A DNA stretch of 64,000 nt from Craspedostauros australis (lineage: Eukaryota > Bacillariophyta > Bacillariophyceae > Mastogloiales > Achnanthaceae): contig JAMXDE010000007.1 of the NCBI GenBank assembly GCA_026770025.1, forward strand, positions 2,294,001 through 2,358,000, written 5' to 3'. The translations under genes were made by a program, and so were the position numbers. A model generated the notes under the pieces. That model made no database searches. It was not told where the DNA came from and saw nothing but the letters and a program-made list of their open reading frames with translations. Below are positions 36,948-60,145 of this stretch, one piece after another. The stretch's first letter is position 1. Every line of letters begins with the position of its first letter.

Positions 36948-37750
36948 AAAGACGGTAATTTTGCATTTCCCATGATAAGGCAACAACAGTTTCTTCCATA
37001 ATCAGCAGTTCAATAGTCAAAAACCAAACTGAAAATTTGCCATCTTTGAGCATTCTTCCTGTCAGTTGTTTGCACAATCATCCTGATTTATGCAAAACCC
37101 AGATTCGCGGCTCCATTTTTGACTTTTACACCCTGTTGCCTGTTCGTGCGTCTGCGGCGCAGATGATGTCGTGCCGCGTTGTGCTTGCCAAGGCATGTGG
37201 AAAGTGTCGTGCTTTGCCGCGAAAACGCCATCATCGCGCGATCGTCTCGCTGTGATGGCCATGGCGGCCATGGCATGCGCTGGTGTCTTGCACGCTTTCG
37301 GCGACAGAAACCCTTGTCTGTTCCGATGCAAAAAAGAGTTCTCAAGATGCGATTTGAACGGGTCGGAAATGTCTTTGCATTCCTTGATACGATTAAAAAT
37401 GTCACCACCAAGCAAGGGTGTACTGAATTCAGGTACATACCACAGCAATGGGTGATAACAAAGGGAGGCATAAGCAATAAATTGCAATCATGACACATCA
37501 ATCACGGAATGGCAATACACAAAGATAATTATTAATTCACATGAACCGGAAAATGCAATTAATACGATGTTAAATGCTAAACATGTCAAAGTGCATGACA
37601 TGGACAGACAGAGAAGCATACTTAACCAATGACATCATGACACAATAATGTTTAAGCTTCACTTGAACGCAATGAGTAAGGGTCATTGTTTGCTTATAAA
37701 CCCACATTCTATAAGCACAGTATCGATCCTTCATGCACACTGCATTATCG

Positions 37751-37984
37751 TGCTTGTGTTGAAGACCCAATTTGGTGCTCTGGGCATAACGCTTATTGTG
37801 CTTGTGTTAAAGACCCAATTTGGTGCTCTGGGCATAATGCTTATTGTGCTTGTATTGAAGACCCAATTTGGTGCTCTGGGCATAACGCTTATTGCGCTTG
37901 TATTGAAGACCCAATTTGGTGCTCTGGGCATAACGCTTATTGTGCTTGTGTGGAAGACCCAATTTGGTGCTCTGGGCATAATGC
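37751..37984. repeat. 48-bp tandem array A
   Basis: Nearly five units starting at 37751, 37799, 37847, 37895 and 37943, with few substitutions. The core is GACCCAATTTGGTGCTCTGG. The unit length is 16 codons, so several frames stay open on both strands. I do not read this as coding. Confidence 0.92.
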
Positions 37985-38398
37985 ACCTTTTCTTGCTTCA
38001 AGTGATGCAAGAATTGACGTTATGGGGCACTGCAAAGAATAAAAAACGCATCTATGCCGCCTTCAAGAGGGCGATTTCGGCCTTATGCATCGCTTTTAGG
38101 GGTCAGAATTGCGCTTATGAAAGCTCTATAAGCGCTTTTCTTGCTGTTTGGATTGATGTCACAAAGCACTCCAAATGATGCCTTTGTGATGTGGCATGTT
38201 TTGGCCTTATACATAGGCCAATTTGGTCACATTCGACTCGCATAATGCTTCAAATTAAGTCGAAGTGGTCATAAGAATCCATTTGGTCTTATGAGCGCCC
38301 CATAGTGTCGAAAACGCCTCTATGGGTGACTAAAAAGTGCTACTTCAGTCCTTTTTAACGATTAATATGAGGACTAATATAGCCCTTTGTTGGAATAA

Positions 38399-38766
38399 GA
38401 CTCATTTGGGCTTTATTGATAGTGCACAATTTGTTTTTTGGGATAAGACTCATTTGGGCTTTATGGATAGTGCACAATTTGTTTTTTGGGATAGGACTCA
38501 TTTGGGCTTTATGGATAGTGCACAATTTGTTTTTTGGGATAGGGCTCATTTGGGCTCTATGGATAGTGCACAATTTGTTTTTTGGGATAGGACTCATTTG
38601 GGCTCTATGGATAGTGCACAATTTGTTTTTTGGGATAGGACTCATTTGGGCTCTATGGATAGTGCACAATTTGTTTTTTGGAATAAGACTCATTTGGGCT
38701 TTATGGAAAGTGCACAATTTGTTTTTTGGGATATGACTCATTCGGGCTTTATGGAAAGTGCACAAA
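38399..38766. repeat. 48-bp tandem array B
   Basis: About 7.7 units starting at 38399 and every 48 bp to 38735. The core is GACTCATTTGGGCTTTATGG, with C/T variation in GGGCTCTATGG. The period equals that of array A and the units look distantly alike around CAATTTG. The frames are open because the period is a multiple of three. Confidence 0.92.
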
Positions 38767-40829
38767 GGGAAGAAATGAATCTGCATCTATTGGGATGAGC
38801 CTCATTTTGGCCTTAAGGATAGCGCATAAGGGTCAGAAACGCATCTGAATCTGTGCCATAGCCGCTGTTTTTCCCCTATCGTTGGTGCATAAGGGCAGAA
38901 CTGCACCTATTTCTGTGTGATAGGCACCGTTCCATCCATATAGATGGCGTTACAAGATCGAATCCGTGTCTGTGTGATAAACACTGTTTCAACCAAATGG
39001 AGTGCTTGCATAGATGAGCACGATTCTGTGTCAATGATTCATGCTGTTTCAACCCAATGAATAGCTAGTACGGATAAGGCTGAAAATTGTCATTGATAAA
39101 AGCTGTTTCTACGATTTGTAGGGGATAATGCTGAATATTTGTCATTGATAAAAGCTGTTTCAACGAATTGGAGGGCTTGCTTAGATGAGCACGCTTCTGT
39201 GTCAATGATTCATGCTGTTTCAACCCAATGAATAGCTAGTACAGATAAGGCTGAATATTTGTCATTGATAAAAGTTGCTTCAACAATGTTCGAGGAAGAA
39301 GAAAATGATCCGTGACAACTAACTCAAACAGAACAGCACACGAATGCTCTCATCAGCTAACGAATCACAGAGACAAAAACAGTGTTCCTTGTGTTCTGCG
39401 AAATCGTGCAATGCAAGTGGTTCATGTGCGAAGCAGCAAGGAGGCGTAATCTGCTCCTCGACATGGCGACGTTGATACGCACAGCGAACACGGACACAGT
39501 GTAAAGTGCACAAAAGGAGCAACAGCGAAGAGCGAGAGGACACCGACCAAATTCTGCGGAAAAGCACCAATTATCCAAAAAAGAACGAAAATTATATATT
39601 ATTCCGTCGAGGATAAGAACTAGGCGGAAACAAGTAATTTATGACTTAAGCGCTATGGAATAGAGCAAATTATTGCATTTTGAACTGCCCCCCTGGCGAC
39701 TTAACAAAGCGCATCGTCGTTGGCTCGTTATTATGGCGCGGCCACCTTCGCTCATGTTGTCGGAGATCTTGTGAGATTCGTTGGAGTGAAACCTGTTCTC
39801 ATTGCTGGTTTTGGCCACGCGTCTGCGCACTATGTCACGTGAAGTTCGATGTCGATGCCAACTCCGCTTCGTGCCAGCCGAAACGAGAACAGAACAGTAA
39901 AACAGACTGAGAGCAACCAGTGGACGCCAAGGAGCAGTAGGACCACTTGCCACCAGATCTCGAATCTCGTTGTATTCAAGAAGGATCGTGCGTATGATCA
40001 TCTCCACTGTGTCTGTAGGTCACAGCCAAGCGTTGCTTTCCCCCAGCGTTGCCGCTCTCTTCCGCGTCGCCTTCCGCTCTTTCCACTTTGCAGACCCGAA
40101 AGAGAAGGCGCATGGTGGTGCCATCTCCTCGCAAACACGTGCCATCACAGTCTTGGCACGCATTGACATCGACAAGATCACGCTGTTCTGATGCAAAGAG
40201 TGGAGCGATACTGCCATGCATCGGATTTGATTGGATGACGGAGATATCCTTTGTTCTTCATCATGGATGCGGGTACACATCCCAAGATCATCTGCTGAAC
40301 AACAGTAGTCGCGAGATCAGAGAAGAGAGACATTGGCTGCACGAGAGCAGGCACAGCGAATGAGAGAAGGGGCGCGCTGCCAACAAGCTTCCCCGCTTGC
40401 GCCAAAACGCTTTCTTGCCCTGTCTCGTTGCCAGAGTTTACGAGAGCACAGTACTCGTAGTCGTGTCTTGTATCAATAGTACCTCACGCTCGTAGCTCGC
40501 ACGTACGAGCGCATGATGAGAAGGCACATCGTGCTCCTTTTCCGTTCACAACTCTCGTTGCGCATCGGTGATAATGCGGGACAGCAGCCCGCCATTTTTT
40601 TGGCATGACCATTCGTTCTCGCGCAGTCTCGCTCCGCAGTGAAATGCCGTACACGACAGAGCGTGGAGTATCTTTGGTGCAACCTCGTTTTCGCCTTTGG
40701 ATGTGTGGGCAGGTATGGGAACCTCGGATCCTGTTGCGTTCGATGACATGACATGATCATAAATTTGAAGCCCGAGCAGCTCGCACACGCAGCAACTCGC
40801 CAAATCTTACTCATCAAGCAACAGCCACC
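38767..40829. other. repeat-derived and gene-poor region
   Basis: From 38.77 to 39.30 kb are degenerate repeats (GCATAAGGG, CTGTTTCAAC motifs), including the 171-bp duplication. From 39.3 kb base composition returns to the window norm, but I find no supported gene before 40830. Confidence 0.5.
39000..39290. repeat. 171-bp direct repeat with about 57-bp subunits
   Basis: The segment starting GAGTGCTTGCATAGATGAGC at 39000 recurs at 39171 as GAGGGCTTGCTTAGATGAGC and stays alike to about 39290. Inside, GTCATTGATAAAAGCTGTTTC occurs three times, suggesting a unit of about 57 bp. Confidence 0.85.
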
Positions 40830-47299: not shown

Positions 47300-48232
47300 T
47301 CACAGCAACGGCTGGGCCTCTCCATGAACCACGATCAAGTCCTTCTGAGAAGAGTCTCGAGACGTGGTGTCGAAGCTGCTGTAGGATGTCGCCGCACCCA
47401 GAGTCTGCCGCATCTCTGGATTCGGATCCTGCGCACAGATTGCAGTCTCGCACCCGTGCTGCGTTGCGTTTGAAGTTTCTCGCCGCGGAATGTCTGTCAT
47501 CCCCATCTCCAAAGATAGGTACCATTCGGTCGTGAAGGTGGCGTGCAGAATGCCAAGCAGGAAGGCCCCAATGAGCATGTCGCTTGAAATTGCCTTGATC
47601 TGCTCGTCAGTCGCCTCTTCAGTGAGTGCAGGGAACAGGCCCGTCCATCCATACTTGTATGTGATGATGAAGGCCATGAGCCAGAAGCGCTGCAGGGTGA
47701 AGGCTTGGAGGTACCCGACCAACCGAATGGCCCAGAACTTGTGTCTTGGGATGTCCTTGTATACGGCAGCGTATCGCCATGCCATGTAGACGCAGTAGGA
47801 CACGACGATGGCGTATACGACGGAGATGATCTTGATGAAAGCAGCATCGCTGGTGGAGGCCATTCCGCACCCAGTAGCGATCTCCACCACAACGACCACC
47901 ATGAGGAATCTGCCGAGGTACCTGTGCATCCATGGGAACGTCTTGCGAATGTAAGGGATGAGCTGGAAGAAGTAGAGGTTCCACCAAAGGATGGCACAGA
48001 TGATATGCGGGAAGAAGTAGATGTACCTCCTCGGGCTGTAGCATGTGGGCGAGATGTTGGGGACGGCGGTGGAGTTGTAAAACGCACCATCGACTGGATG
48101 ACTGCGGAGCTGTTCCAGGCTGTGCTTGGGGTCCCAGAAGCGGTAGCCCACGAGACGTCCCAACGAGACGAACCAGGAGACGAAGAAGAGTATCACCAGC
48201 CAGGAGATTACGTAGATGTCGCGTCCTCTCAT
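47300..48232 (-). CDS. DUF2306-type multi-TM membrane protein (copy 1)
   Basis: 310 residues, one exon, minus strand. About seven hydrophobic segments. The pattern fits DUF2306: YFFPHIICAILWWNLYFFQL, HRYLGRFLMVVVVVE, and LGILHATFTTEWYL. The conserved His residues (PHI, HRYLGR, LHATF) could bind heme or metal; no activity is established. The cytosolic-type tail carries SYSSF and ends EAQPLL, matching YxxPhi and [DE]xxxL[LI] sorting signals. A paralogue lies about 750 bp away in the same orientation. The two share the start MRGRDIYVISWLV and most of the core, so this is a tandem duplication. Confidence 0.82.
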   Translation of the reverse strand: MRGRDIYVISWLVILFFVSWFVSLGRLVGYRFWDPKHSLEQLRSHPVDGAFYNSTAVPNISPTCYSPRRYIYFFPHIICAILWWNLYFFQLIPYIRKTFPWMHRYLGRFLMVVVVVEIATGCGMASTSDAAFIKIISVVYAIVVSYCVYMAWRYAAVYKDIPRHKFWAIRLVGYLQAFTLQRFWLMAFIITYKYGWTGLFPALTEEATDEQIKAISSDMLIGAFLLGILHATFTTEWYLSLEMGMTDIPRRETSNATQHGCETAICAQDPNPEMRQTLGAATSYSSFDTTSRDSSQKDLIVVHGEAQPLL

Positions 48233-48984
48233 CTTGTTGCTGATGGGTGTGGTGGTTGGGTGCCTTAGTCACCTGTGATCTTGCTTTTTATGGTGCTCGG
48301 TGTGCAGCACTTTCTCCAAGCCATGATGCTGCGACACTGCGATGATACGATGCTGCGATGCTGGGGTGCTGGACCCGTATTCGCAATGACACAGCAAAGT
48401 GCAGCCAAGGTCTCGCTCCGCAGGGAATGCGTGTGCCTGGCCCTGGCCGTTTCATTCCGTGGATGACTCGCGAAGTTACTCATTTCTCCCATCATTCACG
48501 ATTTCGGTTCGTCGCTTCGGCCGATTCGCGAAAGTTTCTCGTAACACAACCACATGCATGTTCGCCGGTACGTGTAAGCTACAGTGAGCCCCCCAGATCA
48601 GCATCTCCGACCAGCGTGCTTCACTCAAATACAAACTCCGGAGAGAGGAATTGGGTGGGCAACACCGCTCCTGTGGCATCACCGCGTTCGCAGATCACAC
48701 AAATCTTTCGAAACGAACCGTGCCTGTTGAGTGTGTGACACACGATCATCGAGAAGTTGAGAAATGAGCCTTTCGTGCAGCGCGAATGCGCAGATCTTAC
48801 ACGCATTGTGGTATGATGATCTATTATATGTTTGGTAAACTAGAATGTAATAGCATAATTCTTGCGCATGGTGTCAGCGATGTTCGGACCAATTTGAATT
48901 CCATGGAATGTACTTGCATGGCTCTCCTCGCACAGATCCGATCTAGATCCTGCCATTGTCCCATCAGCATCGCGTCGATGGTTC
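48233..48984. other. intergenic between tandem paralogues
   Basis: Presumed promoter region of copy 1 and 3' region of copy 2. No gene recognised. Confidence 0.4.
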
Positions 48985-49884
48985 TCACAGCAATGACTGC
49001 GCCTCGTCGCGACGCGGTTGCTGCGACGAAGCTTTCGCGTTGTCGCTGAAGCTGCTGTACGTCGTCGAACCTTGCGGGTTGCTGTCCGTGCCGATTGCTG
49101 ATTGCTGCGTCGCAGGCGACGCCGATGCTCCTGGCTGCACGACGTCGGACACCCCCATCTCCAAGGAGAGGTACCATTCGGTCGTGAGGATGGCATGGAG
49201 GATGCTGATGACGAAGGAATCATCGAACATGCGCAACACGAGGGTGCGGATGTCTTCGTCGCTGGTGTCGTCGGTGATGGCGGGATACAAGCCGGTCCAT
49301 CCGCTCTGATGGCTGATGATGACGAACATCAACCAGAAGCGTTGCAAAGCAATGGTCTGCAGGTACCCCACCAGTCGCATCACCCAGAACTTGTGCCTTG
49401 GGATATCTTTGTAGATCGCAGCGTGACGCCATGCCTTGTAGACGCAGTAGAACACGGCGGCGGCAAAGATGCACGAAACGATCTTGATGATGGAGGAATG
49501 GCTCGTGACCGCCAATCCGAATCCACTCCACGCCTGAATGAGGACGACGACCATCAGGAATCTTCCGAGATACCTGTGCGTGCTTCGGAACCTCTTTCGG
49601 ATGGATGGGATGAGTTGGAAGAAGTAGAGGTTCCACCAAAGGATAGCGCAGACGACGTGCGGGAGGAAGTAGACATACCGTCTCTGCGTGAAGTAGGACT
49701 TTGAGATCTCGGTGGTCGCAGTGGAATTGTAAAAGAGTTCCTCCGTCGGGTGTTCCTCAGCCTTTTCCAGGTTGTATTTGGCATCCCAGAAGTGGAGGCC
49801 GATGAGGCGTCCCAACGCGACGAACCAGGAGACGAAGAACAGCAGCACCAGCCATGAGATCACGTAAATGTCGCGTCCTCTCAT
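48985..49884 (-). CDS. DUF2306-type multi-TM membrane protein (copy 2)
   Basis: 299 residues, one exon, minus strand. Same architecture as copy 1: start MRGRDIYVISWLVLLFFVSW, YFLPHVVCAILWWNLYFFQL, HRYLGRFLMVVVLIQ, and ISILHAILTTEWYLSLEMG. The C-terminal tail has diverged in length and sequence but keeps TYSSF and the terminal DEAQSLL. Function unknown; the sorting motifs suggest vacuolar or endosomal membranes. Confidence 0.82.
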   Translation of the reverse strand: MRGRDIYVISWLVLLFFVSWFVALGRLIGLHFWDAKYNLEKAEEHPTEELFYNSTATTEISKSYFTQRRYVYFLPHVVCAILWWNLYFFQLIPSIRKRFRSTHRYLGRFLMVVVLIQAWSGFGLAVTSHSSIIKIVSCIFAAAVFYCVYKAWRHAAIYKDIPRHKFWVMRLVGYLQTIALQRFWLMFVIISHQSGWTGLYPAITDDTSDEDIRTLVLRMFDDSFVISILHAILTTEWYLSLEMGVSDVVQPGASASPATQQSAIGTDSNPQGSTTYSSFSDNAKASSQQPRRDEAQSLL

Positions 49885-53309: not shown

Positions 53310-54475
53310 AGGAGTTGCTTCTTCTTGAATGGCATTTTCCTTACAAACATTCTATTCTAGGTGGGTGGCATGCATTAATATTCCTGCTCCACTCATTCTG
53401 TAAATTAGTCCACGGTATTGCGACGTTCGATGCATCACATCGCATCAAAGTAGGGCCGCGACACAACAGGCACAACAAGGCACAAGGCACAGCAGACACA
53501 GCAAACAAACAAGCAAGCGCTGTTGTTGGTGCTGGCGTTGTTTGTTGCTCTGCTGGTGTAGATGGCTCGCCTCGTAAGGTTGTCCCCAAACAGCCTAACT
53601 TGACTTGTCCTTGTGGACTCACAGTTTTCGCCATTGTCGCAACACGACCACCGCGACTCGTTAACGATCGAACGATTCCGTGAGATACCTTTCAGTCGCG
53701 TGATTGGGTGCCAAACGTGGTAGTTCTCAATCCCATATCATCGAAACGGGCAGTCGTGACAAGTGGAATGACCTCGGATGACATGTCACAACAGATTTGT
53801 CCTGGCAATCGCCCATCACTCTGTTTCGTTCTTCTTTGGTTTCTTCGTGACAGGATTCTTGCTGTGCCTGTATTCGCTTTGCTGGAGAGGAAAACTACCA
53901 CGAAGAATCGAGGTGTTGGGTGGCACTGTTAGGATCATCGCCTCAATAACATCGACACTCCTTCTCTCTCTCTCTCTTTCCCTCCAGATGGTTTCGTTAA
54001 AGCCTTGTCAAAGCGGCTCTTCGGCAGTGGGGCACCAACAGAATGAAGCGACACCGCATCGAAAATGCAAAAAGGCGAAAAGCTGACACAAACTGCGAAT
54101 CCAGAGTGGGAGGAGAGTTTGCTTCACATCGAAAATCTGCTCTTGGTCCACCTTGTTCTCCCAAAGCGAATGTGATCGAAAGATGAGATTTGTCGGCGCG
54201 GAGGTTCACGCTTTTTTTGCTTCGGCCAAAGAATGTCAAAATTCCTCTCTTGGCACATCTCTTTTGTTGCCGGGAGTTGAGGGAAATATGCATATATGTC
54301 ATTTCTATGGAAAATACGTTGTATCACTGTTCTACCAACAAACCCCGTTCGTGTTTGATTTCTGCTCGTCAGTCCAATGTCGAACGCATACTGTAGTCTG
54401 CGAAAAGGCAGCGCAGCTGTTGACGACACGATGAAGTGATTGTGGCATTCAATAGGATGTGGATCACTCTTGACT
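53310..54475. other. intergenic, no gene recognised
   Basis: Between the sulfatase and the transposase, which converge. A CT run lies at 53961-53990. No terminal inverted repeat of the transposon could be identified here by eye. Confidence 0.4.
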
Positions 54476-55560
54476 CTAGTAATTAACTTGGTATGGACTG
54501 AAGCCTCCAGATTGAATAGACAGTTGTGTGAGAAAGGCAATTGTTTTGAACACTGCCTTATGGCGTTCTCTATCTGACCTGTATGTGCTCCCCAAGATCG
54601 CCCATCTCTTGAATTGCCGATTGATCGTTTCATGGCGCGCACGAGCATTGGACTTAGCTCGTTTGTTTGACTTCGACACATAGCTGGTTGGCTTCAGCAC
54701 ATGGGGCCCACCATACCCCCCATCGGCCTCAACACATTCTCCCTCCATCAGTCGCTTCGCGAGGAAGGCATTGAATATCTTTTGATCCGACCACCTGCCA
54801 CAGGGAAAAGGTCCGACTGCCCAAACAATGTGGCCTGTTTGGATCGAGATCGCAACTTCATATCTCAGCCCCGATGTCTTGAACTTGTGACTGTACCATT
54901 TTGAGCTGAATGGTGTGGGCTCACGGATGCGGAAGTCAGTTCCATCCACAGTAACATGGCAAGTTCGAGGTTTAGACGAATTTAAGCGGTTGCGCCATTT
55001 GATCTGGAAGGAAAGGTGAGAAGATGTTGAATGCAATACAGGCATTGAACACATTGCGGAAGGCAGAACGAGCACAGCACAAAATCACTTACCACTTCTT
55101 TGTAGCATTGCTGAATGCAGGCAATCATTTGCCAGATCCACTTTCGAAGTGTGTGTGGATCTGCTCCGAAAGTTGCCTTCAATACATCGTAGGTGGGGTA
55201 GTTCTTGAGAAAGTGGAGAGCCCAGAATAGATGTTTTGGCTTTGCCTTGGCAGGCAGAACGCAGCGATCCCAGACCTCCTTGCAGAGCTTGGGCGTGACG
55301 CCGAACCATGCAATGAATGCTCTTTTTGATGTTTCTGATCCCCCATTCTTGGGGGGCAGGCTCCCCATGAGAAAGAAACCGATGGATTCGAAGTCAACCG
55401 AAGAATGCTTGGACCGAAGCAACTGTTGTTGTTGCCTGGTCATCCTGATGGTCTCATTCTTGTCCTTCAACCTTGATCTTCGATTGCTTGACTTGCCGGC
55501 CTTGCTGGCGGAGATGCTGTTGCAGGTCATGGTGATGGCGATGGACGACGAACCAGCCAA
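54476..55560 (-). mobile_element. PIF/Harbinger-like transposase gene (DDE_Tnp_4)
   Basis: Two exons on the minus strand, 55560-55093 and 55003-54476, with an 89-nt intron (GTAAGT...TTCCAG) in phase 0; 331 residues with no internal stop. Exon 1 carries a basic head and a helix-turn-helix-like region (KPKHLFWALHFLKNYPTYDV). Exon 2 carries the DDE nuclease: VTVDGTDFRI (first Asp), VEADGGYGG (second Asp) and RARHETINRQFKRW (Glu). GPFPCGRWSDQKIF is typical of this IS5/Harbinger relative. The catalytic residues look intact, so the gene may be active or recently active. The divergent gene at 57047 could be the accessory gene such elements often carry. Confidence 0.88.
55004..55092 (-). other. intron of the transposase gene
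   Basis: 89 nt, GTAAGTG donor and TTCCAG acceptor on the minus strand. Splicing joins CYKEV to IKWRNRL in phase 0. Confidence 0.85.
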
Positions 55561-57046
55561 TGGGCATTGTTCTCAAGACCGTGTGCGTTGGATGGAGCAG
55601 CACGTCTCTGATCAATTGCGGATGTTGATGGTTGTGTGTGTGTGTGTGTGTATGCGTGTGAACTGGTGGTGATGCCTCGGTTGATTGCCTTGGTGTTGCG
55701 AAGGTGCGGCGCTTGGTGATCATGCCATTTAGGTTTGATGGCGATGGAGGAAATTGAAATTGTGAGCAGAGTGTTGTTGTTGATGGTGTTGCATGGGTGT
55801 GACGCACTGCCAACTGATGTCATGATTCGCGATACACTTTTTTCACGTTGCACTGAGGAGGCTCGTGGGCGAAGTGCAGCGAGTGAAACGACTCGCATCA
55901 GTTCTCACGCGCCAATACAACGTGTGGAGAGTCCTTGTGCTGTCGCTTCTTTGGCTTGTTGTCAACCATCGGTCAGCAACCTCGCCAAATCACAGTCTTC
56001 CCTCTTGCTCTCGAGCGTTCAAGCCCGGAGCTTGCCCTGCTGACTCGGCTTGGCGGATACATTTTCACGCCAGCACATATTCGCAACTACAGCGACGAAG
56101 CTATTGTATCTATGTTTCTGTAGTATGGCAGGCGCATGCATCATTCAAATGCAGTATAGTACATGAAAACAAATGACGTTGATGTGTGTGGTTAAATTGT
56201 TTCGAACGCTGCAATCAACGGTTGTCTCATGTGCTCTGCTATATTATATTAGTACGACTGCTTCGTATGAACCAGATTAGTTACTCATGTCCGGTGCGCG
56301 GTATTGTCTTTGGTGGAGCGCCTGTGCTCTCACAACGGAATTAGTGAATGTTTGGTATATCTATTTTCGTGTCCAGGCGTTAGTCAATATGACAACGACC
56401 GTTACTTGTCATGACCGGTTCGGTGACACAATCGTGAGGGAAAAAAACGCTTTTGTGGGGGAAAAAACGGGGTCCGCAGGGGAAATAAACAACACCATCA
56501 GGGAAATAACTGCATCGTGGGGGAAATTTGTGCATCGTAAGGGAGTTTTGGGGAATAAAATTCCCTTGCAATTTCCCTCACGAATATGTCGTTGGCCTCG
56601 TTCATTTACGTGTAATTGTTGACATCATCATATTATTGCAGTTACAGAATTTCCCCTACAACTCCAAAATTTCCCTTACGATGCAGTAATTTCCCTTGCA
56701 TTCTCATAATTTCCCCTACGACCCCCAATCTTTCCCCTGCAATCTAGACAATTTCCCCTACGACACTGGGAATTCCCTTGCAACAATGCTTCCCGCCAAC
56801 CATGTACTGTGCACTGGATAGTGCTACACTTCTGATGTTAGTTAATCAATGCCTGCTCAGTTCTCACCTGGGTTTGCTCAACTTGGTGGGGATGGTTGCT
56901 TCTGAAGTGCCACGACAACGGCAAATTTGCGATGATGTTGCAGCAAATTCTGCAAGTTGCTTGACTTGTTGCGATTCTTCCCGTTCATACGCTGCTTTCT
57001 CATGCTTGGTTTGTGGTGTGAGGGATGGTCTCACAACACAACAACA
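55561..57046. other. divergent intergenic region with phased motif array
   Basis: Lies between the start of the transposase gene and the plus-strand gene at 57047. It contains a GT dinucleotide run at about 55629-55650 and the inverted GGGGAAAT array at 56436-56780. No coding region recognised. Confidence 0.5.
56436..56780. repeat. two-armed inverted array of GGGGAAAT motifs, 20-21 bp period
   Basis: The left arm has seven forward copies (last G at 56440, 56461, 56482, 56503, 56523, 56543 and 56553). The right arm has nine reverse copies (first C at 56563, 56575, 56653, 56673, 56693, 56713, 56734, 56755 and 56775). Spacing is 20 or 21 bp within each arm, apart from two short steps of 10 and 12 bp and one gap of 78 bp. 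The oriented consensus is roughly GTAGGGGAAATT. Sequence between the motifs is not conserved. Confidence 0.93.
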
Positions 57047-58734
57047 ATGACACCTCGCAACAACAACAACAAGCCAACTCGGCATAAAACACATCCCATC
57101 TTCAACAAATCCGGTTTCCGCAAATGGTACCGAGATTCTGACGACGCCGTATACATCATCAAAGGTCTCATCAACAACTCCATCCCACAGACCTTCAGCG
57201 AGTTCATCAAGACACACACCGACTGGGTTGATCCAAAGGGCAAGAACTACCTCCGCCGCAACCTCGCAAACAACTTCAAAAGCTGTGTCAATCGCTTCAA
57301 CAAGCATCAGTCTCGGCGAGAACGTAAGTGCCAACAGTGATGAGATGAATGATGGCATCATTTGTGTGGTGATGTGATTTTCCTGTCTTGCAGTGTGAAT
57401 TTTGTGGCAGCCACTCACATCCCTCCTGCTTCTCTTTCTCAGCCTTTGAGAAGACATTCCGACAACGTCTGGGATTGCCGGGAACACCCGAACGCAATCG
57501 AGACGTTCCAGGACTCGATCAGCTCTCCCTCCAGCCAGGAAGCGACAGCAGTCCTCCACGTGGAAACGAACAGAACAACAACAACAACACGGAAAATCAA
57601 AGCAACAACAACACACCATCCGCCAACGCCGACGAAAGCAGTGAAGACGAAGACTTCGAACTTGGCGACGACGACGACGATCAATCATTGATCACAACAG
57701 AGTCGTACGACACCATCGAAAGCGAGGACGGCGACCCCCACCAAGACAACATCCCTGCCATCACTCAAGACGCCAGTCCAGTTGCCCGCCTGCCATTCGC
57801 TTCCAACGAGCGCATCGACAGCAGTGACGAAGACGACGACGAGTACACGCTCGAGACCATCGAATCGAGCGACGGAGTCGAGGTCATTGCTACATCAGCA
57901 CCACCTCCTCGCGTCCTCTTCAAGGATCTCCCTCTCCAGTCCAAGCCCACAACGAGCACACAAGACGCCAAGATGCCTGCACAAAAGGCCGCCCCAAAGA
58001 AGCCCGCCGAGAACAACGACACGAATCTGGCTGTGTCTCAGAAGGTTCAGAGCTGCGGTGGGAAGATCTCAACTGAGATCCCTGGATTGCATTTCATCCC
58101 AATCCAGGTTCCAGATCCCAACTCTTCTGCAACCCACGCAAGCATGCGAACTGGATACATCGTGTACTTCGAGGTTCCTTTTGGAGTGACAATGGATTCT
58201 GTTGAATTCAAGATCGTTGACGAGAGCACCATCAGCGTCAGCTACGCCAAAAACGTGCGCAACTACAACACCAAATACAGGGTGACGGAGGAGCACCTCC
58301 AGGTTGGGAATCTGGACCCCCAGATCCAAAGCTACTTTGACATCTTCTGGGGCCACTTCAAGGCTGAGCATGACACTGAGAAACATGCGGTCAGTCTCAC
58401 GGACTCATTTCCGAGCAAGGTGGAGCTGGATTTTGTGGATCCTGAAAACGGGTACGCCAAGGTTGGCGAGGATGACGATCCCATCACTCTTCTTCATTTT
58501 CAAGCAGACCCTGATCGTGTTGTGAAGGTCTTCGAGGATGATTCTGATGACGATGACATGCCCATTTTCTATGTCATGTATGCATTTGCTCTTTGTGTCC
58601 GCGATACCAAGAAGGTGAAGGCGACGCCAATTGCGAAGAAAAAGGTGCGACGTGCTCGACGTGCTGCAGCGCACAAGCAGAAGGACATCACCAAGGATGA
58701 CATGTCCATCCATCCCAATGAAGCCACATCCTAG
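57047..58734 (+). CDS. acidic two-exon protein next to transposase, unknown
   Basis: Exons 57047-57323 and 57443-58734, joined in phase 1 over a 119-nt intron (GTAAGT...TTTCTCAG); 522 residues. A nearer AG at 57393 would shift the frame into a stop, so I prefer 57443, which has the better pyrimidine tract. Residues 1-92 are a compact basic domain (HPIFNKSGFRKWYRDSDDAV, LRRNLANNFKSCVNRF) that could bind DNA. An Asn/Asp/Glu/Ser-rich linker follows. Residues about 320-460 look like a beta-rich domain (GYIVYFEVPFGVTMDSVEFK). The end is strongly basic (AKKKVRRARRAAAHKQK). No family recognised. It may be the accessory gene of the adjacent transposon or a host gene. Confidence 0.68.
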
Positions 58735-60145
58735 TGCAAACAGTGCACAATCGCATCTTGCACCAACATCAACACCAAACATAACAGTAGTAGTAGTTCT
58801 CAACAACAATCAGTTTTGTGAAATCGAGACAGCTGATTTGTGTTGTGTTGCAAAACATTCGAGATTGTTCGATCCGATTCTGAGATGTCGAATCACGGGT
58901 GGAGATATGTCACGGATGTCAATTTCCCTCAACTCCCCGCAGATGGTGTCACGCCACACCACACAACACCGTGCATACCTTTGCGCCCCTCTTGTACCCC
59001 AACACATGCCATGGCTCGTACAACACGGATAGTCTGGCAGCGCCCACGCACACCCGCTGAATCTCCTGCTTCCTGTTTTGTCCCTCCTCGGAGTGATATT
59101 CTCCGCCGCAGGACTGTCCGTGGCACCGAGTGCACTTTCGTAGGCGTGTCCCACAGCAACTTCAACGAAGTGTATAAATTGTGTGTCTTGGGAGGATGGG
59201 AAGGTCTTGTGTGATGGTGGGCCATGAGGATTTTTTAGCGTTTGACGACCACATTCGTGATCATTGCTTGGACGGCAACTGCTCTTGTTGTACGAAAGCA
59301 GATGGTGTCCACGAACCACCAGCGACTACGGTGACATGGGGAATGCAGGACGGCAGAGCGGACAGAATGAAGACTGGAGCAGGGGACGATAGAGCAGAGC
59401 GCTCTGCCACGTTGTTAGTCTGGCTGCGAGATCTTCCGCTGGTAAGAAACCACGCACCCTGCCTGCTTACCGACAGAGTATTGGCACTTGCGAGTACATA
59501 CGTGCCCATTAGTTGTTCGCGTGGCACGCACGTACATGCAGGAGCCGTGTTATGGTGCGTGACATGTGCTAACTGTGGATTTGTGGGCACCTCACAATTC
59601 ATCTCTGATACGTGTGCTTAGTTCTTCGCGCTTCCACCTCCAAAGCATTGACAAAAATAAGTGCATAAGAGATGCGGGTAGGACCAACCGACAGGATGAT
59701 GACGATGGGAGTGAGCTGCGGTGGGGCCATAGCGAGGTCATTTCATTTTGTCGAACAGAAGACAGGAGTGTCAAAGGAGGATGGATGCATGAAGATGGAA
59801 GGGCGATTGATTGCGCCGATTTGTCACCACTACATCAATGTAGCAGCATTGCCAGCAATCGAGTGCACAACTCTACCACACTCTGCACTCTGAACTCTGC
59901 GCTGTGCATTGATATCTGTTCTTGCACCACGAACACGATCCACAGGTACCGGCGGGCTTGTACAGGTCGGCGAACTGTGCGTTTTCTCTCAGCAACCATG
60001 ACACCAAACTGCAAAGAAAGTGCAAGAAAGGAAGGAGGCACAAACAGGTTGCCTCCGATCTGCCGCTCCCCTTCTCAATGTGGAGCCAAGGCAGAGGAGG
60101 CCCGCCATGTCCACTCGCAGCAGAGTACCTGGAAATTGCCGAGAC
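58735..60145. other. intergenic, no gene recognised
   Basis: Only short overlapping open frames; nothing supported. Confidence 0.4.

Follow-up and report, generated by a model that had tools for sequence, protein, structure and literature searches.

The window analysed here, 64,000 nucleotides of the diatom Craspedostauros australis (contig JAMXDE010000007.1, positions 2,294,001 to 2,358,000), contains an array of short repeated sites in two opposed arms, and this array sits within a 4,664-bp DNA transposon (54273–58936) that ends in inverted repeats of 15 bp and is flanked by a duplicated CCG. The element is an autonomous-looking DNA transposon of the PIF/Harbinger superfamily, in which the array separates a transposase gene from a divergent accessory gene. 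We consider it probable, though far from certain, that the array is an internal control region of the transposon, read by the element's own accessory protein, a binding that we infer. The parts of the element, in window coordinates, are:

54270–54272, unstranded: left target-site duplication CCG
54273–54287, plus strand: left terminal inverted repeat (TIR) GGAGTTGAGGGAAAT, which contains the array core GGGAAAT
54476–55560, minus strand: transposase gene, as two overlapping open frames, 54476–55075 (DDE domain) and 54982–55560 (N-terminal part)
56438–56558, plus strand: left arm of the array, seven forward GGGAR sites at steps of 21, 21, 21, 20, 20 and 10 bp
56559–56579, minus strand: pair of reverse sites at 56561 and 56573, a 12-bp step, directed towards the left arm
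56580–56648, unstranded: centre between the arms, without sites
56649–56780, minus strand: right arm of the array, seven reverse sites at steps of 20, 20, 20, 21, 21 and 20 bp
57047–57323, plus strand: accessory gene exon 1, N-terminal domain (donor GT at 57324, read by eye)
57443–58734, plus strand: predicted accessory gene exon 2 (acceptor AG at 57441–57442, read by eye), no Pfam family
58922–58936, minus strand: right TIR
58937–58939, unstranded: right target-site duplication CCG

Sixteen GGGAR sites were found between 56438 and 56777, seven forward and nine reverse, the same count as in an earlier sequence-only reading of this DNA. The forward sites start at 56438, 56459, 56480, 56501, 56521, 56541 and 56551 (first G of GGG, plus strand) and the reverse, minus-strand sites at 56561, 56573, 56651, 56671, 56691, 56711, 56732, 56753 and 56773 (TTCCC). 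The steps of 20–21 bp and the short steps of 10 and 12 bp described in that reading were recovered, together with one gap of 78 bp, and two of the nine reverse sites, all of which had been placed on the right arm, lie to the left of this gap. The array of motifs stands, but its consensus had to be corrected and is TYGYRRGGGAAATT over all 16 sites, GGG and the first A being invariant. With at most one mismatch, GGGGAAAT occurs 11 times in 56436–56780, whereas 1000 dinucleotide shuffles of this stretch gave 1.28 occurrences on average and never more than 7. Tandem Repeats Finder (TRF) reported 2.2 and 5.6 copies in the array, so that some adjacent spacers are similar, and each arm is an imperfect inverted repeat of the other (to other copies there are 13 matches on the minus strand, 71–86 bp, 75–77% identity); judging from these repeats, tandem and inverted duplication is part of the history of the array.

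The link between motif and transposon was established across the 74.8-Mb assembly (90 contigs). The 401 bp spanning the array recur at full length in 12 other places at 97–98% identity, with a further match of 78% on contig C45 and pieces on C35 and C53. Identity between the copies spans approximately 54272 to 58937, at 92–97% in the 12 copies. A separate fold-back element, which had been proposed as one possibility, was therefore rejected, as the array lies centrally within the copies and does not form the ends of a mobile unit. A spaced pair of motifs, GGGAAATN{12,14}GGGAAAT, matched 89 times genome-wide, with no match to the reversed control; assigned by hand, 68 belong to the family of the window's element (family A), 19 to a second family (B) and two to a broken relative on C53, which has pieces of the right gene 7.8 kb from its spaced pairs. 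The association of the array with the transposase and the right gene was thus borne out, all 89 pairs lying in or beside such elements, and the array is neither a satellite unrelated to these genes nor one whose spacing drifts randomly in other copies.

The left gene matches the Pfam families DDE_Tnp_4 (3e-10, positions 1–157 of 158) and DDE_Tnp_1 (2.5e-7), and the DDE_Tnp_4-type DDE transposase expected of PIF/Harbinger elements is thus present. All 13 full family A copies (the window's and 12 near-full others) have the TIRs and 3-bp duplication expected of the superfamily, and each is flanked by a perfect CNG duplication. Two of these, L017 and L018 (C44 and C42), share their flanks and represent one insertion, as haplotype copies or through segmental duplication, which leaves 12 independent insertions with CTG (6), CAG (4), CCG (1) and CGG (1) as duplications, ten of them CWG. 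The C45 copy, L022, is an older relative whose ends are off the pattern, and was left out of the 13. Another family A copy, L021 (G000:C35, approximately 221.5–229.9 kb), is cut in two by an insertion of some 8.3 kb into the array's centre, where there are no sites, its flanking matches to the window running from 56641 rightward on one side and over 56594–56641 on the other.

Comparison of the window with L022, which is 22% diverged, revealed fewer changes in the motifs (18 of 128 positions, 14%) than in the spacers (46 of 160, 29%; Fisher p 0.003). Four masks were slid along the array from −10 to +10 (21 shifts) and divergence from L022 was scored. An 8-base mask reached its minimum, 0.141, at the true register and a 6-base core mask gave 0.104 at −1, 0.115 at the register and at least 0.156 at the other 19 shifts, whereas two longer masks, extending upstream, had their minima off register, at +3 and +5. 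Because the short masks bottom at or near the register and the longer ones do not, clear conservation, as far as this comparison goes, is limited to the core. The earlier view of conserved cores with freer spacers is upheld in this respect, but the spacers are not wholly unrelated, as the TRF copies illustrate. Variation within family A (3 of 128 motif against 9 of 160 spacer positions) is not decisive, and the scarcity of indels in the array (1 in 344 nt, against 10 in 845 nt to the left) says little, because the right side also has few (0 in 266 nt). Within 57047–57443, divergence between L022 and the window falls to 7% (exon 1) and 3% (intron), from approximately 14–27% in other parts, which suggests gene conversion or recombination between subfamilies.

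Arrays between the same pair of genes were also found in two other families, at steps of 21–22 bp; they are less regular than in family A and their motifs have changed, in one case to a wholly different one. In family B, the transposase is 63–66% and the accessory protein 28–33% identical to family A. In its copy L054, the TGGGA-type sites (nine forward, four reverse) have the consensus CCATGGGAAAACGA and six 21-bp steps; they follow in the order seven forward, one reverse, two forward and three reverse, so that the arms are interleaved. The ends of L054 start GGAGCCATGGTAAT and GGAGCAACGGTAAA, and its target-site duplication is CTG. Two units, one of 21 bp and one of 20 bp, distinguish L056 from L054 and L055. 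CAG and CTG flank both sides of the family B copies on C9 and C14, and the left flank of L045 is not CNG. For 16 of the 20 exact family B left ends, an exact spaced pair lies on the same contig (14 at approximately 2.3 kb, two at approximately 11.5 kb); none was found for those on C16, C36, C39 and C59. A 20-bp tandem repeat of the TGCATTTAATGCACTT type (L054 633–828) lies directly to the left of the family B insertion.

The family C transposase is 52–54% identical to that of family A. Beside the same gene pair, this family has TCCGACAAG-type sites, three of them forward at 22-bp steps, then two more 22 bp apart whose best reading is the reverse one, and further reverse sites beyond. At up to two mismatches, eight sites fall in 320 bp, against a mean of 0.73 and a maximum of 5 in 500 mononucleotide shuffles, and the pair pattern at the same threshold has 52 matches at 26 loci, with none for the control. 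Twenty-five of these loci are the 25 family C copies and the remaining one is on C46; the accessory domain lies on the same contig at all 26, within 1 kb at 25 and at approximately 7.6 kb on C23.

Constant helical phase had been taken as a sign of selection for cooperative binding on one helix face. Phase resultants at 10.5 bp are 0.915 for family A (13 steps), 0.748 for B (9) and 0.873 for C (4), a rough measure that uses hand-entered step lists, omits the 78-bp gap and owes part of its value to unit duplication alone. Duplication of units can also produce a constant spacing, and copies of family B do vary by 21- and 20-bp units, so that we do not maintain that claim.

The core of the array recurs at the ends of the element. 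Of 13 exact GGGAAAT occurrences in the window, nine are in the array, one in each TIR and two elsewhere; the two TIR copies lie at equal distance from the element end, and each arm of the family A array is oriented as the nearer end. In family B, the left TIR, CCATGGTAAT, resembles the array consensus and is the second-best non-array match in 6.6 kb of L054, so that the changed motif is common to the array and one end. A model in which array and ends share sites would, if true, have a CCGACAAG-like core in the family C ends. Several observations weigh against an element protein that reads array and ends alike. A 14-position array matrix fits the family A ends less well, placing them second and third among the element's non-array sites, at least eight sites elsewhere in the window outscore them, and the inward-facing site at the right end of L054 ranks only 41st with the array matrix.

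We also compared the exact ends by hand with known copies. All 28 exact family A TIRs lie in copies already identified, two of them (C44:115452 and C53:78706) adjoining fragments of the right gene, and each of the 20 exact left ends of family B has a listed transposase no more than 330 bp away; because every exact end thus adjoins a known copy or a listed transposase, no array-less short derivative was seen among them. Three family B-like left ends with one mismatch, at G000:C2:1821669, C47:446190 and C82:52537, have no transposase nearby among the matches listed and are possibly short family B-like derivatives. The sequence GGAGTTGCGGGAAAT, one base off the TIR, occurs in same-orientation pairs approximately 6.7 kb apart, as in the long terminal repeats of another element (G000:C1:1983587/1990244, C3:858030/864710, C9:1785213/1791920 and C17:1310755/1317407).

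Conservation of the accessory protein is highest in its N-terminal domain, which is 50% identical to that of family B (66 residues) and 30% identical to that of family C (90 residues); the remainder is 27% identical to family B. AlphaFold, run with three sequences, predicted helices at 32–42, 50–56 and 70–92 (mean pLDDT 79.5), and matches of this three-helix model to known folds are weak, with the homeodomain and other helix-turn-helix or DNA-binding domains on top. The protein has no Pfam family of weight, and no Pfam match to Myb/SANT was obtained in the second open reading frame (ORF) at E up to 5. Other loci with the domain lie near a listed transposase (same contig, within 4 kb), five at 84% and three at 57% identity, and nine further loci are at 41–45%. 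Families A and B, whose domains are closer, share a GGGA core that family C lacks, and a role of the N-terminal domain as reader of the array fits these three points.

The array consists of repeats of the core that the ends of the element also carry; they form two inverted arms, with a step of roughly two helix turns, and separate the divergent transposase and accessory genes. We propose that the accessory protein binds these sites side by side by means of its helical N-terminal domain. The transposase of characterised PIF/Harbinger elements has no obvious DNA-binding domain, and the probable binder is ORF1, according to the available sections of one report (PMC2836001); carried over to the present element, the same protein would bind ends and array alike. 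With the accessory gene's first ATG 0.27 kb away and the transposase frame at 0.9 kb, the array would be able to control both genes, through autoregulation or through protection from silencing as by the VANC proteins of VANDAL elements, and the binding may also assist the pairing of the ends. The motif–element link, the conserved cores and the arrays of two further families favour two of the options offered in the sequence-only reading, in which the array serves an element protein as platform or as bidirectional operator. On our best reading of its role, bidirectional operator and anti-silencing platform rank first and transposition enhancer third.

Two explanations dispense with an element protein. 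The periodicity could merely reflect tandem duplication of a 20–21-bp unit in a functionless, neutral minisatellite, as the whole-unit indels of family B, the likeness of some adjacent spacers and the lack of a clear motif/spacer split in family A polymorphism would allow; we regard this as very unlikely, given the difference between core and spacer divergence from L022, the opposed arms and the recurrence of a similar step at the same position, with different motifs, in three families. Host transcription factor sites driving both genes would likewise be expected between divergent genes, and TTTCCC is similar to some host motifs, E2F sites among them; yet families A, B and C differ in motif but not in position and step, and such sites have no need for the core in the family A ends, so that we consider this explanation unlikely.

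Two others are special forms of the control region that we favour. As a transposition enhancer, the array would be an internal assembly site that meets both ends in a three-part complex, by analogy with phage Mu, and the core common to array and ends, the orientation of the family A arms and the absence of array-less derivatives among the exact ends could be read in this way. However, a further 39 matches to the family A ends have one mismatch, three of the seven one-mismatch family B left ends have no transposase among the matches listed, and L036, which retains a left end and a partial transposase before diverging, has no array in the next 1.2 kb, so that an array-less copy may have moved. 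L036 appears to count mildly against a strict requirement of the array for movement, and the enhancer is, in our view, improbable. As an anti-silencing platform, the array would offer a family-specific tandem noncoding motif to a VANC-like accessory protein that clears silent chromatin from its own family. This is a tentative possibility, to which the gain and loss of whole units in family B, the change of array motif from family to family and the described VANC targets, short motifs repeated in tandem and varying from one related element to another (PMC10398659, PMC5735166), lend some weight, whereas the accessory protein has no detected relation to a known family and the available portions of the VANC descriptions mention neither a helical step nor inverted arms.

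Elsewhere in the window, a low-GC stretch (37745–39284) holds tandem repeats of 48 bp, in 4.9 and 7.9 copies, along with 52/60-bp units, and 47300–49884 contains two related open frames in tandem for membrane-type proteins, both starting MRGRDIYVISWLV.

VANDAL elements belong to another superfamily, the Mutator-like elements. They resemble the present one in having an accessory protein, short family-specific tandem motifs in noncoding DNA and gain or loss of units, but the binding has been demonstrated for VANC, whereas here it is proposed from the sequence, and we found no homology (PMC5735166, PMC10398659, available portions). Within PIF/Harbinger, the NuwaI group likewise combines a DDE transposase with a second ORF and a 3-bp duplication that is mostly CWG, and GG as the first TIR bases, found here, is stated for the related NuwaII; unlike NuwaI, the present family also uses CCG and CGG and its second ORF lacks a detectable Myb/SANT domain, and the sections of that paper available to us describe NuwaI as mainly animal and mention no internal motif array (PMC4482050). 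The Medicago element MtPH-A6-4 has variable-number tandem repeats, in opposite orientation when present on both sides, whose 60-bp unit contains a triplicated short motif (approximately 20 bp apart by division of the unit), but these repeats are subterminal rather than between genes, and TIR match, phase and binding are not discussed in the portion seen (PMC2213677). Galileo (PMC3688188) and P elements (PMC7776569) also have multiple transposase-binding sites in repeats or within their ends, which, from what these excerpts describe, lie in or near the ends and not between two divergent genes as here.

Tandem motif repeats as such are thus already known, from Medicago Harbinger, VANDAL elements and Galileo ends; a central array with opposed arms, a two-turn step, a fixed place, a motif that changes with the family and a core in the ends was not found in the literature searched, as far as its accessible text goes. 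It is a doubtful generalisation that a two-gene Harbinger lineage is marked by such a central, helically phased array of end-like sites, which would serve as operator and as assembly or anti-silencing platform, its motif coevolving with the accessory binding domain and the ends. Every family would then possess a private regulatory circuit, illustrating how a two-gene transposon shields its own control from relatives in one genome. The functions of the second ORF in the superfamily are called unknown in the available part of one study (PMC4482050). Here, its probable sites are visible in the sequence, and the three families provide natural variants of domain, motif and ends. The array would, on the broader view, be a eukaryotic counterpart of the Mu enhancer-operator. 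Mu is a bacterial phage and its enhancer sites are unlike its end sites, but they lie between divergent promoters, as the array does here, and form a three-part complex with both ends.
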